Shown here one piece after another: positions 33,961 to 38,939 of a DNA stretch of 64,000 bases (the first letter of the stretch is position 1; each line of letters begins with the position of its first letter). Source of the DNA: an uncultured Verrucomicrobiota bacterium (GTDB taxonomy: Bacteria > Verrucomicrobiota > Verrucomicrobiia > Opitutales > Opitutaceae); NCBI GenBank assembly GCA_903898675.1, contig CAIUGM010000036.1, forward strand, positions 62,001 to 126,000, given 5' to 3'. Below the pieces are notes generated by a model. That model was not told the origin of the DNA. It did not search any database and saw nothing but the letters and a program-made list of their open reading frames with translations. Both the position numbers and the translations under genes were made by a program.

Positions 33961-35442
33961 TCAGGAGATGTAGCCTTCTTCCCCGTGCTCGTTGATGTCC
34001 AGGCCCTGCGACTCGACCTCGGCGGTCGGGCGCAGACCGATGACCGCCTTCACCAAGTAGGCGATCACCACGGTGCCCACCACCGACATCACGATGGTGA
34101 TGCCCATGGCCTTGAGCTGCTCGACCCAGAGGCCGTGGTTCGCGACCAGCTTGTCGAGGCCGTTGGCCTTGGCGTAGCTGTTGGCATCGGTCAGGTTGGC
34201 GTTAACCGCGCCGGTCGCCAGAATGCCGGTCAGCAGGGCGCCGATCGTGCCACCGACGGCGTGCACGCCGAAGGTGTCAAGCGCGTCATCGTAGCCGAAG
34301 AACGACTTGAGCTTGGTGCAGGCGAGGAACGGGACCACCCCGGCGATCAAGCCGATGATGACGGCCCCCGTGGCGTCGACAAAGCCGGTGGCCGGGGTGA
34401 TCACCACCAGGCCGGCGACCGCACCCGAGCAGAAGCCGAGGACCGAGGCGTGTTTCTTGGTGAAATACTCCAGCGCGCCCCAGGTGAACGATGCGACCGC
34501 CGTGGCCAGCGTGGTCGTCATGAAGGCGTTGGCGGCAATACCGTCGGCCGCGACCGCCGAACCGGCGTTGAAGCCGTACCAGCCGACCCAGAGCATGCCG
34601 GTGCCGACCATGCAAAGCACCATGCTGTGCGGCGGCATGGGCTCCTTGCCGAACCCCACGCGCTTGCCCAGGATGATGCAGAGGATGAGCGCGGACCAGC
34701 CGGAGCTCATGTGAACCACCGTGCCGCCGGCGAAGTCGATCGCCTTGATCTTGGCGTCACCGTTCCAGACGCCGTTCATGAAGCCGTCCACGCCCCAGAT
34801 CATGTGGGCCAGTGGGAAATAGATCACAAACATCCAGATCGTGACGAAGGCCAGGATCGCCGTGAACTTCATGCGTTCCGCAATCGCGCCGACAATCAGC
34901 GCCGGGGTGATGATCGCGAACATCATCTGGTACATCGCGAAGACGTTCTGCGAGACCCAGGCGGCGTAGTCGGTGTTGGGGGCCGAATCAACGCCCTTGA
35001 GGAAGGCGAACTTCAGTCCGCCCAGGAACGGCGAGCCGCTCGAGAAAACGAGACTGTAGCCCACCGCCCACCACAGGATCGTGACCAGTCCGGCAATGCC
35101 CAGACACTGGGCCAGGACGGAAAGCACGTTCTTTTTCCGGACCAGGCCGCCGTAGAACAGCGCGAGACCGGGCAGGGTCATGAACAGCACCAAGGCGGCG
35201 CTGGTCATCATCCAGGCGTTGTGGCCGGGACCGGGACCGGCAACCTTGGAGGCGACGTCCGCCGTGCGGGCGCCGTTGTTTACATAGGCCTCAAGATCAG
35301 CGAGCCGCTGATCGACGGTGGGTTCTTTGGGTGCGGTGGCGGCCGGAGCCGGGGCTGGATCCTCGGCGCGAAGCAGGGGACCGAGGGCAAAAACCGCGAA
35401 CAAACTGGCAAACAGGAATAGAGGGCGAAATCGAAGGAACAT
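33961..35442 (-). CDS. amt: Ammonium transporter Amt, canonical copy
   Basis: A 493-aa ammonium channel. The N-terminal signal peptide (FLFASLFAVFALGPLLRA) is common in this family, followed by a short Pro-rich periplasmic stretch. Eleven helices carry the classic motifs: LPGLALFYGGLVRKKNVLS, DFAGGTVVHMSSGWSALIL (first pore histidine) and DTFGVHAVGGTIGALLTG (second pore histidine). The C-terminal tail ESQGLDINEHGEEGYIS matches the canonical cytosolic tail that contacts GlnK-type PII proteins. No glnK is nearby. It follows a 510-bp structured gap after a small membrane protein and a second amt. Confidence 0.96.
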   Translation of the reverse strand: MFLRFRPLFLFASLFAVFALGPLLRAEDPAPAPAATAPKEPTVDQRLADLEAYVNNGARTADVASKVAGPGPGHNAWMMTSAALVLFMTLPGLALFYGGLVRKKNVLSVLAQCLGIAGLVTILWWAVGYSLVFSSGSPFLGGLKFAFLKGVDSAPNTDYAAWVSQNVFAMYQMMFAIITPALIVGAIAERMKFTAILAFVTIWMFVIYFPLAHMIWGVDGFMNGVWNGDAKIKAIDFAGGTVVHMSSGWSALILCIILGKRVGFGKEPMPPHSMVLCMVGTGMLWVGWYGFNAGSAVAADGIAANAFMTTTLATAVASFTWGALEYFTKKHASVLGFCSGAVAGLVVITPATGFVDATGAVIIGLIAGVVPFLACTKLKSFFGYDDALDTFGVHAVGGTIGALLTGILATGAVNANLTDANSYAKANGLDKLVANHGLWVEQLKAMGITIVMSVVGTVVIAYLVKAVIGLRPTAEVESQGLDINEHGEEGYIS

Positions 35443-35472
35443 AGTGTGTGTGAGTTGACTGCACTGGGGGTG

Positions 35473-35490
35473 GCCTGTCCGAGAACAGGC
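35473..35490 (-). promoter_or_regulatory. Hairpin in the leader of amt (first copy)
   Basis: Stem GCCTGT/ACAGGC lies 30-48 nt upstream of the amt ATG, followed by the CA-rich leader CAACTCACACACACT. No Shine-Dalgarno is visible before the ATG. Confidence 0.45.
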
Positions 35491-35599
35491 GCTATGACTT
35501 GCACTGAAAAAAGGCGCCGAAGTAGACGAAGTTTCGAGCCTTGCAGCTGACGTTTGGATTCAGGTCACGGGGGACCGCGGATCAAAAATGCCACGGCCA

Positions 35600-35850
35600 G
35601 ACAAAGAAGATCGCTGCCGGGCTCCAACCCGGCGGTGAAAAACCCCGCGGGCAGGACCGAAAGGTCTCCTGACTCAGGAAAATGCAATGGCATCAGCTGC
35701 GGTTAAGCACGTCTGATGCCATTTGACTAAACGCAAAAGCACTCTTCCGGCACACTGAAGTGCTGGAAGAGGCTTGTCGCTGAATTTGTATCCAACTCCT
35801 AGGAGTTGGTAAGGTTCTTATCTTTCGTGTGTTGTATTTTTTCTTTCCGT
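35600..35850 (+). ncRNA. Candidate structured RNA between the two amt loci (unrecognised)
   Basis: Within the 510-bp gene-free gap 35443-35952 several consecutive hairpins occur: CGCTGCCGGG-ctccaa-CCCGGCGGTG (35612-35637), GACC-GAAA-GGTC (35655-35666), AATGGCATCAG/CTGATGCCATT (35686-35723), CTCTTCCGGCAC-actgaa-GTGCTGGAAGAG (35742-35771), and the perfect palindrome CCAACTCCTAGGAGTTGG (35792-35809) followed by a T-rich run. The plus strand is favoured because it gives G-U wobble pairs where the minus strand gives A-C mismatches, a GAAA tetraloop, and a terminator-like end. It matches no riboswitch or small RNA I know. It may instead be DNA operators for amt. Confidence 0.35.
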
Positions 35851-35952
35851 AAATCTGTGCATAGGGCCTAAAGCACCTGCATTGTTTCCGGGACCTCCTT
35901 ATGACCCGAAAGGATCACAAGGATGATCGGCAGAAGGATGCAGGCGCCCGTT

Positions 35953-36285
35953 TTATGCCCGGTTCTCGGCCATACGGAGGCGAAGTTGTTGGTAGAGGAT
36001 GACGCCATAGCCGATGACAACCCCGCTGGAGACCCACCACTGGGTTCCATCGACAAACAGCAACGGGCAGACGAACTGCACCAAGGCGAGCGCAACCAGG
36101 AGATAGGCGACCCGCGCACCCGAGCCAGGCATGAGCGACCAACCATTTTTCAGTTTGCCGGTCTGCTGAAGCCGTTGGTGGCGGCGAAGCGCTGCGCGTT
36201 GCAACGTACCAAAAGCCAGCCCAATGGCCCCGCCGGCCGAGAGGCCGACGAGGTCGCGGACGAGATCAAGGAAGTGTGTTTGCAT
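35953..36285 (-). CDS. Small membrane protein between two Amt genes
   Basis: A 110-aa protein with two or three hydrophobic segments (LVGLSAGGAIGLAFGTL, VAYLLVALALVQFVCPLLFV, WWVSSGVVIGYGVILYQQ). A basic loop RAALRRHQRLQQTGKLKNG lies between the first two. I do not recognise a family. It follows amt2 after 32 bp and is presumably co-transcribed. Its position suggests a role linked to ammonium transport, but this is inference. Confidence 0.7.
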   Translation of the reverse strand: MQTHFLDLVRDLVGLSAGGAIGLAFGTLQRAALRRHQRLQQTGKLKNGWSLMPGSGARVAYLLVALALVQFVCPLLFVDGTQWWVSSGVVIGYGVILYQQLRLRMAENRA

Positions 36286-36317: not shown

Positions 36318-38000
36318 TTAGTGGGCGACCGGGGTTTCGGACTGCTTGTCCAACATCATGCCGTTATAGCCGGCGATGCCCATTTCGGGAATGTCCAAGC
36401 CTTCGATTTCGACCTCGAGCGAAACACGATTACCGACGAGTTTCTCGGCGACGAAGTAGAAGAGAATGGAAAGCAGGGAAACGGTGACGAAGCAGGTCGT
36501 GACGCCGATCAGCTCGGCCCAGAATTGGCCCATGCCACCGCCGTAGAACAATCCGGTGACCGTGCCGGCAACACCGTTCCAACCATCGCCATAAGTGCCG
36601 TCAGCGAACAGGCCGATCGAAAGACAGCCCCAGGCGCCATTGACGCCATGGACGGAGATAGCGCCGACCGCATCGTCAATCCGGATTCGATCGAAGAAGA
36701 AGACCGCCTCAACCACCAGGAGTCCCGCGACGATCCCGATGATGGCCGCACCGCCGGCGCTGACAAACGCGCAGGGCGCCGTGATGGCAACCAAGCCGGC
36801 CAGCATGCCATTGCACATCATGGACGGGTCGGGCTTCTTGGTCTTGAACCACCACATGTAAAGCGTGGTGGCAAGGGCCGCCGTGGACCCGGCGATCATG
36901 GTGTTGACCGCCACCGTGGCGATGCGCAGATCGGTACCGGCCAGCGTGGAGCCCGGGTTGAAACCGAACCAGCCGAACGCCAGGATGAAAGTGCCCAACA
37001 TGACCATCGGGATGTTGTGCGGCAGAATCGGGTTAACGAGCTTGCCTTCCTTGTTGTACTTCCCGTGACGCGGCCCGATGAGCCAGCAGAAGATCAGCGC
37101 GATGACGCCGCCCTGCATATGCACAACCGAGGAACCGGCGAAATCAACGTGGCCATGGCCGAGGCCGGGGAAGTTGGCCCCGAGCTGGGAGAGCCAGCCG
37201 CCGCCCCACACCCAATTGCCAAAAAGCGGGTAGATCAGCGTGCCGATGAAGCAGCCATAGATCATGAAAGCCGAGAACTTCCAACGCTCGGCGGCACCGC
37301 CAGTCGGAATCGTCGCAGTCGTGTCCATGAACACCATCTGGAACAAGAAGAGGGCGAAGGCGGCGGTATCGTAACCGGCACCCTGCAGCAGGAAGCCCTT
37401 CCAGCCAATGATACCGAAAGGTTTCCCGAAAATGGTCCAGGTGATCTCGTGGTTCAGGCCGGCGTAGCCACCCATCGTGCCGATGGCACCAAGGCCGCCG
37501 AACATGAACGCAAACCCGCAAAGATAAAAGCCGAGCATGCCCATCGGGTAGATCATGAAGTTCATCGCCATGGTATGGCTCGCGTTCTTCGCGCGGCAGA
37601 GACCGGTCTCAACCAACGCGAAGCCGGCCTGCATGAACATCACGAGGAACCCGGTGACGAGCGTCCACATGAAGTTGATCGAAACGCGATTGTGGCCGAC
37701 GTTGTCGGCCAGCTTCACCGCGAGCGGTTCCACCTTGGCCGCCGCTGCATAGTCATCCGCCGCCTTCTTGGCGTCGTCGAATGCCTTCATCTTGTCCTTG
37801 TCTTTCTTGTCCTCGTCACTGAGGTCAGCCGGGGCGCTGACCACAAAGCCGGGGACGTCCGCGATGGTACCGGTGGACAATCCGGCAGGATCTGGTTTGG
37901 GATCATCCGCCATCATCCGTGGCAGCCCGAGGCTGCACAAAAGCGCAAACCCGACCAGGGCTGCGCGTGACCATTTTAATCCTGTAGACCGGTTTCTCAT
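36318..38000 (-). CDS. Ammonium transporter Amt, divergent copy with long N-terminus
   Basis: A 560-aa Amt-family channel from the ATG at 38000. After a signal peptide (ALVGFALLCSLGLPRMMA) comes a charged 80-residue periplasmic segment (DLSDEDKKDKDKMKAFDDAKKAADDYAAA) not found in the other copy. The channel part has FALVETGLCRAKNASHT, FAGSSVVHMQGGVIALIF (first pore His), VLGLGW-type helices and ISVHGVNGAWGCLSIGLF (second pore His). The tail is EGLDIPEMGIAGYNG, unlike the canonical EHGEEGY tail, so its PII control may differ. It is the first gene of an Amt-small-protein unit. Its leader has a hairpin plus CACACACAAAACG. Confidence 0.92.
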   Translation of the reverse strand: MRNRSTGLKWSRAALVGFALLCSLGLPRMMADDPKPDPAGLSTGTIADVPGFVVSAPADLSDEDKKDKDKMKAFDDAKKAADDYAAAAKVEPLAVKLADNVGHNRVSINFMWTLVTGFLVMFMQAGFALVETGLCRAKNASHTMAMNFMIYPMGMLGFYLCGFAFMFGGLGAIGTMGGYAGLNHEITWTIFGKPFGIIGWKGFLLQGAGYDTAAFALFLFQMVFMDTTATIPTGGAAERWKFSAFMIYGCFIGTLIYPLFGNWVWGGGWLSQLGANFPGLGHGHVDFAGSSVVHMQGGVIALIFCWLIGPRHGKYNKEGKLVNPILPHNIPMVMLGTFILAFGWFGFNPGSTLAGTDLRIATVAVNTMIAGSTAALATTLYMWWFKTKKPDPSMMCNGMLAGLVAITAPCAFVSAGGAAIIGIVAGLLVVEAVFFFDRIRIDDAVGAISVHGVNGAWGCLSIGLFADGTYGDGWNGVAGTVTGLFYGGGMGQFWAELIGVTTCFVTVSLLSILFYFVAEKLVGNRVSLEVEIEGLDIPEMGIAGYNGMMLDKQSETPVAH

Positions 38001-38045
38001 ATTCGTGGTGTTCTTTTTGGAGTTAAGCCCTGTCGTTTTGTGTGT

Positions 38046-38062
38046 GGGTGGAACCGTCACCC
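38046..38062 (-). promoter_or_regulatory. Hairpin in the leader of the divergent amt
   Basis: Stem GGGTG/CACCC with a 7-nt loop lies about 46-62 nt upstream of the ATG and is followed on the minus strand by ACACACAAAACG, a CA-rich leader similar to those of the TonB receptors and the other amt. Confidence 0.45.
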
Positions 38063-38117
38063 AGTGTCGCACCCCGCATACCAAGCAAAATAGACAGAAA
38101 GTAGATTAACCGATTTG

Positions 38118-38140
38118 GAATATAGATATTTTATATATTC
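38118..38140 (-). promoter_or_regulatory. AT-rich inverted repeat upstream of the divergent amt
   Basis: GAATATA-gatatttta-TATATTC is a 7-bp inverted repeat in an otherwise GC-rich region, about 120 bp upstream of the amt start. It is a plausible UP-element or regulator site near the promoter; boxes cannot be assigned firmly. Confidence 0.4.
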
Positions 38141-38234
38141 TCCCTCTCAGCGGCGCGGTTCGCACCGGCCTTTCCGCGTCCTCGGACGCGGTCTTATGAC
38201 AGTCTAACCGACCGGCCATCGCGGGCCGCCAAAC

Positions 38235-38939
38235 CTAGTTGCCCGGCTCGCTGACGAAACGGTAGCCGATGCCGGACTCGGTCTGGAAATACTGCGGGTC
38301 ATCCACCTCATCCTCCAGTTTCCGCCGCAGGCGCATCATGTAGGTCCGGAGATAATGCGTCTGCGCCTCGGCCTTCGGTCCCCAGAGTTCGCGCAACACC
38401 TGCCGGTGGGTCAGCGCCTTGTCGCGGTGCATGATGAACAGCTGGAGCAAGGCATATTCCATCGAGGTCAGCTTCACCGCCTGGCCCTGCTTCATGACCC
38501 GGCGCCGCTCCAGGTCGACCACGACGGTGCCAAAGCGGAAGGTGTTCGAGGCCACCGCCGGCTTGATGCGACGAAGCAAGGCGCGCAGCCGCGCAAGCAG
38601 TTCACCGTCCCCAAACGGCTTGGTCAGATAGTCGTCGGCCCCGGCATCCAGTGCGGCGATCTTGCTGCCTTCCTGGCCAAAGACGGACAGGATGAGCACC
38701 GGCACCGGGCTTTTCTCGCGCAGGCGGGCAAGCACCTTGACCCCCGGCAGGTCCGGCAGGCCCAGATCCAGAATGACCGCGTCGGGTGCGGCCCTTTCAA
38801 ATTCGCTGAGCCCCGCGAGTCCCGTCTCGGCCTCGCGGACCACGTAGCCGGCATCTTCCAGGGTCAGCCGCAGCAGCCGGCGGATCTGGACTTCGTCGTC
38901 GATCACCAGGATTTCGATTCTGAGCGGATCAGCGGTCAT
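38235..38939 (-). CDS. kdpE: OmpR-family response regulator, KdpE-like
   Basis: A 234-aa regulator. The receiver domain has the acidic pair in LVIDDEVQI, phosphoacceptor D58 (AVILDLGLPDLPG) and K107 (DDYLTKPFGDGEL). The winged-helix domain includes VKLTSMEYALLQLF, ALTHRQVLRELWG and THYLRTYMMRLRRKLE, the last typical of KdpE. The ATG at 38939 gives an 11-bp overlap with the kinase gene; the larger track ORF continues into the kinase in another frame. No kdpFABC potassium pump gene is in the window. Confidence 0.9.
   Translation of the reverse strand: MTADPLRIEILVIDDEVQIRRLLRLTLEDAGYVVREAETGLAGLSEFERAAPDAVILDLGLPDLPGVKVLARLREKSPVPVLILSVFGQEGSKIAALDAGADDYLTKPFGDGELLARLRALLRRIKPAVASNTFRFGTVVVDLERRRVMKQGQAVKLTSMEYALLQLFIMHRDKALTHRQVLRELWGPKAEAQTHYLRTYMMRLRRKLEDEVDDPQYFQTESGIGYRFVSEPGN

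Follow-up and report, generated by a model that had tools for sequence, protein, structure and literature searches.

The gap at positions 35443-35952 of the window (i.e. the analysed stretch of 64,000 nucleotides from an uncultured Verrucomicrobiota bacterium) is very probably a minus-strand, sigma-54-dependent nitrogen-control promoter of the ammonium transporter gene amt1, accompanied by upstream palindromic sites, and not a plus-strand RNA. According to the mechanism that we propose, RNA polymerase with sigma-54 (RpoN) would bind the element at 35706-35721, after which an NtrC-class AAA+ activator, turned on by nitrogen limitation, would remodel the polymerase complex, and transcription would begin near 35695 and reach amt1 after a leader of about 253 nt. 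The 18-bp palindrome and the 12-bp dyad located further upstream would most likely act at the DNA level, the activator or a co-regulator using them as enhancers or operators, and the distal hairpin would terminate or protect the transcript of amt2 and the small ORF that follows it. The element itself, its recurrence at orthologous genes, the RpoN and activator genes and the failure of the RNA fold to be conserved are shown by the sequences, whereas the point where transcription begins, its response to nitrogen and the roles of the palindromes are inferred.

Layout of the locus

The genes and elements on which the argument turns are the following:

33961-35442, minus: amt1, ammonium transporter of 493 aa with a signal peptide (PF00909, Pfam E 3.4e-107)
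35507-35542, minus: terminator-like hairpin with a U run, weak (-8.7 kcal/mol, 11-nt loop)
35655-35666: GACC-GAAA-GGTC mini-hairpin (loop UUUC on the minus strand) inside the predicted amt1 leader, unremarkable by itself
35686-35696/35713-35723: 11-bp inverted repeat AATGGCATCAG/CTGATGCCATT, overlapping the sigma-54 promoter
35695, minus: predicted transcription start, 12 nt past the -12 GC, as sigma-54 geometry would have it
35706-35721, minus: sigma-54 -24/-12 element TGGCATCAGACGTGCT (GG-N10-GC), sense to amt1
35742-35753/35760-35771: 12-bp dyad centred at about -61 from the predicted start, possible regulator site
35792-35809: perfect 18-bp palindrome CCAACTCCTAGGAGTTGG centred at about -105, candidate enhancer (UAS)
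35871-35949, minus: long imperfect hairpin (-45.6 kcal/mol on the minus and -34.0 on the plus strand)
35953-36285, minus: ORF of 110 aa between amt2 and amt1, without family match
36318-38084, minus: amt2, second ammonium transporter (PF00909, Pfam E 2.5e-105)

The first-pass annotation had presented the gap as separating two amt loci. These are not independent loci, as amt2, the 110-aa ORF and amt1 all lie on the minus strand, in that order, and because the surrounding genes all run in this direction the gap represents upstream sequence of amt1. Across the family, orthologs of amt1 are 70-79% identical, and with those in the glnK-amt operons of Opitutaceae and other Verrucomicrobia the identity is 65-80%. 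The true start of amt2 may be a later ATG; its own upstream region (38085-38250, minus) contains GC-rich hairpins and an AT-rich stretch, and yielded neither an Rfam match nor a sigma-54 element in the strict form. The 110-aa ORF, which contains a hydrophobic stretch and sits near the position that glnK occupies in relatives, found no match in Pfam, NCBIfam, 20 congeners or plasmids. Both the gap and its 18-bp palindrome (searched allowing up to 3 mismatches) are single-copy in the genome, and the idea of a transposed or repeated element was rejected on this ground.

The sigma-54 element and its recurrence upstream of amt1

The element TGGCATCAGACGTGCT, which is contained within minus-strand AAATGGCATCAGACGTGCTTAACC, fits the sigma-54 consensus, TGGCACG-N4-TTGC (PMC3224663), with the GG and GC ten bases apart. 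It was overlooked in the first-pass annotation and overlaps the 11-bp repeat described there: one arm of that repeat (35713-35723) is the -24 box on the minus strand and the other arm lies at the predicted start. Shuffling of the gap produced a match on the minus strand in 2 of 2000 cases. Genome-wide, the sigma-54 pattern was found four times and the reversed control also gave four, i.e. there is no enrichment, and 0.55 matches are expected by chance in the window; the motif by itself is therefore weak evidence, and the case for a promoter rests on position and orthology.

The comparison across orthologs was made with the pattern TGGC[AC]-N7-TGC, at most 350 nt upstream of amt1, in 99 relatives (Opitutaceae and other Verrucomicrobia). 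The element was recovered in 55 of these, while the opposite strand carried it in 1 of 99, and it was always located 25-117 nt before the amt1 start codon. Removal of near-duplicates left it in 51 of 94 distinct upstream regions, where 0.7 would be expected from shuffles. At the level of sequence comparison, such recurrence among orthologs is strong evidence for a promoter. An inverted repeat spanning the promoter was also considered as a conserved operator and was not significant, the mean observed in the relatives being reached by 14 of 200 permutations. A literature search for sigma-54 control of amt genes in Verrucomicrobia found only a mention (PMC3404531).

The distance between element and gene sets the present locus apart. 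It amounts to 279 nt, which is at least 160 nt beyond that in any relative checked (maximum 117), and the predicted leader accordingly measures about 250 nt, versus about 90 nt or less in the relatives. Given this distance, the gap may hold something extra. In 62 of the 99 relatives glnK is located directly upstream of amt1, in some cases with an amt2-like gene above it, and the simplest account is a local rearrangement that exchanged the gene upstream and made the leader longer.

Palindromes and hairpins: DNA sites or RNA

The GAAA-capped stem, the 12-bp stem, the 11-bp repeat and the 18-bp palindrome that had been singled out from the sequence are all present at the positions first assigned to them. 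The gap contains three strong dyads, versus a mean of 0.27 and a maximum of 2 in 200 shuffles, and this density exceeds chance; the longest single dyad (11 matched bases) was equalled by 6 of 200 shuffles and thus does not fall outside them. The 18-bp palindrome and the T-rich tail behind it do not form a terminator, as the terminator scan found none. The long hairpin at 35871-35949 directly follows the stop codon of the 110-aa ORF; it has no U tail, and it likely marks the 3' end of the upstream transcript or acts there as a terminator-type hairpin.

Sigma-54 enhancers are commonly found 70-150 bp upstream and have no common consensus (PMC3844500). The 18-bp palindrome, at about -105, falls inside this range, and we put the chance that it is an enhancer at about even. 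Upstream of the relatives' promoters, neither dyad nor k-mer enrichment revealed a shared enhancer motif (ATGACA occurs in 9 of 51 only); the 12-bp dyad was present, among the fetched loci, in this genome only, and the palindromic sites are private to it. The suggestion of an operator array for a nitrogen regulator, which had been put forward as a second option, came close in that there is a minus-strand sigma-54 promoter with palindromes upstream; the regulatory part assigned to the palindromes is a putative one. They could also serve an unrelated factor as operators, or have been left behind by a rearrangement that brought a different small ORF near the usual position of glnK, next to a promoter that is nonetheless real. 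This alternative in either form, to which we give an appreciable but minority share, agrees with the replacement of the relatives' usual glnK by a lineage-specific ORF and a longer gap, and with the absence of the palindromes from the relatives' promoters, but the position of the 18-bp palindrome, which suits a sigma-54 enhancer, counts against it.

Whether the gap would fold better as an RNA of the plus strand depends on the part considered. The 12-bp stem, in which 11 of 12 pairs are Watson-Crick and one is G-U on the plus strand (-25.1 kcal/mol plus, -21.9 minus), the GAAA stem (-6.9 plus, -4.7 minus) and the CCGGG stem are more stable on the plus strand, by 2-6 kcal/mol, and to this extent the earlier preference for that strand holds. 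It does not hold for the largest hairpin (35871-35949), which is better on the minus strand by 11.6 kcal/mol, nor for the gap as a whole, which departs from shuffles at least as much on the minus (z -6.6) as on the plus strand (z -5.4), the surplus over shuffles residing in the upstream half (z -5.9). The section 35600-35850 gives z -7.1 on the plus and z -5.4 on the minus strand. Since palindromic DNA folds on both strands, fold scores alone do not indicate RNA.

The central proposal of the first-pass annotation, an undescribed plus-strand structured RNA (a small RNA at about 35600-35850), could draw on that plus-strand z-score, on the GNRA loop and single G-U pair that make some stems better on the plus strand, and on a sub-threshold Rfam match to MH_s10 (RF02879, mesorhizobial RNA 10) at 35610-35705, plus strand. 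This match (23.5 bits at a gathering score of 81, E 0.05) is a weak likeness only, far below the gathering score, and does not indicate membership of the family. However, the plus-strand score derives largely from DNA palindromes that fold on the minus strand too, one stem of the proposed RNA overlaps the sigma-54 promoter, no plus-strand sigma-70-type promoter or terminator was seen, and the test of conservation failed, with no sequence or fold homolog in 20 congeners or in up to 252 genomes of the family. Searching 57 and 252 genomes at the DNA level returned no homologous gap, and no sister species was found among the genomes compared; a covariance model that represents the plus-strand fold of this single sequence had no hit outside the present genome in a set of 57 relatives, and a further 70 fetched loci, mostly amt1 or glnK, gave nothing credible. 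A novel structured RNA should have homologs with covarying pairs, and no homologs were found. Rfam gave 0 matches at the gathering threshold in the window, and permissive E-values added nothing credible. On the sequences compared, and by the criterion set in the first-pass annotation, conservation refutes the RNA reading to the extent that it is able to, and we regard the small RNA as very improbable, with some room left for a young RNA confined to this lineage. Two further candidates were set aside. Weak family-wide matches to 35612-35656 are ascribed to chance or composition, as the regions in which they align have the look of coding sequence without any relation to the gap. Minus-strand GAGTCAGGAGACC, which we take to resemble the B12 box of cobalamin riboswitches, was rejected as such a box, no cobalamin model matching even at E 5.

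RNA-based control could also be sought in the amt1 leader itself, namely as a riboswitch or attenuator on the minus strand that employs the hairpin at 35507-35542, or as a short sigma-54-dependent RNA ending there. In favour of such a role are a leader far longer than those of the relatives and a hairpin and U run that stand in the sense orientation. Nevertheless, the predicted fold of the leader (35443-35692, minus) is no stronger than that of shuffles (z -1.6), the putative terminator is weak with its 11-nt loop and was not called by the standard scan, minus-strand Rfam matches do not go beyond chance, and genome searches showed no conservation; we therefore consider this reading improbable. 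The more specific notion that the long leader is a recently gained RNA regulator, in which an early stop at 35507-35542 either attenuates amt1 or yields a short RNA that is nitrogen-induced, is distinctly improbable. An ORF of 42 aa (35565-35693, minus), whose ATG lies at the predicted start (MPLHFPESGDLSV...), has no family match and a length that chance can reach, and is probably due to chance.

Regulators in the genome and relation to known systems

The genome encodes RpoN together with five strong sigma-54 activator domains and some weaker ones, and the four activators examined resemble NtrC, AtoC or NifA-type proteins. The most NtrC-like of these (L054:1232-2683, minus; G000:C38 near 95172) combines a receiver with a sigma-54 AAA+ domain; it gave no match to HTH_8, its C-terminus is Lys/Ala-rich, and it might need no enhancer. 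Another NtrC-like activator is located at C31:223397. There are three copies of glnK, on contigs other than that of amt1, and two of these have matching sigma-54 promoters, TGGCATGAGCCGTGCT and TGGCATCAGAGTTGCT (L052:1353 and L053:2198), that are very like the one of amt1. At the L053 glnK locus a GGGAGCGAGTTTGCTCGC-type repeat is found upstream too. The assembly contains one weak match to a glutamine-synthetase domain (48 bits, G000:C31:138936-139625), and a canonical glnA seems to be missing, divergent or not assembled.

Taken as promoter architecture, the very probable sigma-54 promoter of amt1 explains why the gap is so rich in hairpins, and it cautions that DNA crowded with palindromes near a sigma-54 promoter can pass for structured RNA. 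The wide occurrence of the element ahead of amt1, both in Opitutaceae and in other Verrucomicrobia, is of use for annotating the control of nitrogen in a phylum that has received little study.

The arrangement shares with the sigma-54 promoters of amtB, glnK and glnA the GG-N10-GC -24/-12 element, an ammonium transporter as target, RpoN with NtrC-class activators, and a candidate upstream palindrome; it differs from them in that no E. coli-type NtrC site was recognised, glnK does not adjoin amt1 and the leader is unusually long. With the glnK-amt operons of Opitutaceae and other Verrucomicrobia it has the orthologous amt1 and the same promoter element in common. Most of those operons, however, carry glnK directly upstream and the element close to the gene, whereas here an unrelated small ORF takes that place and the promoter stands much further away.
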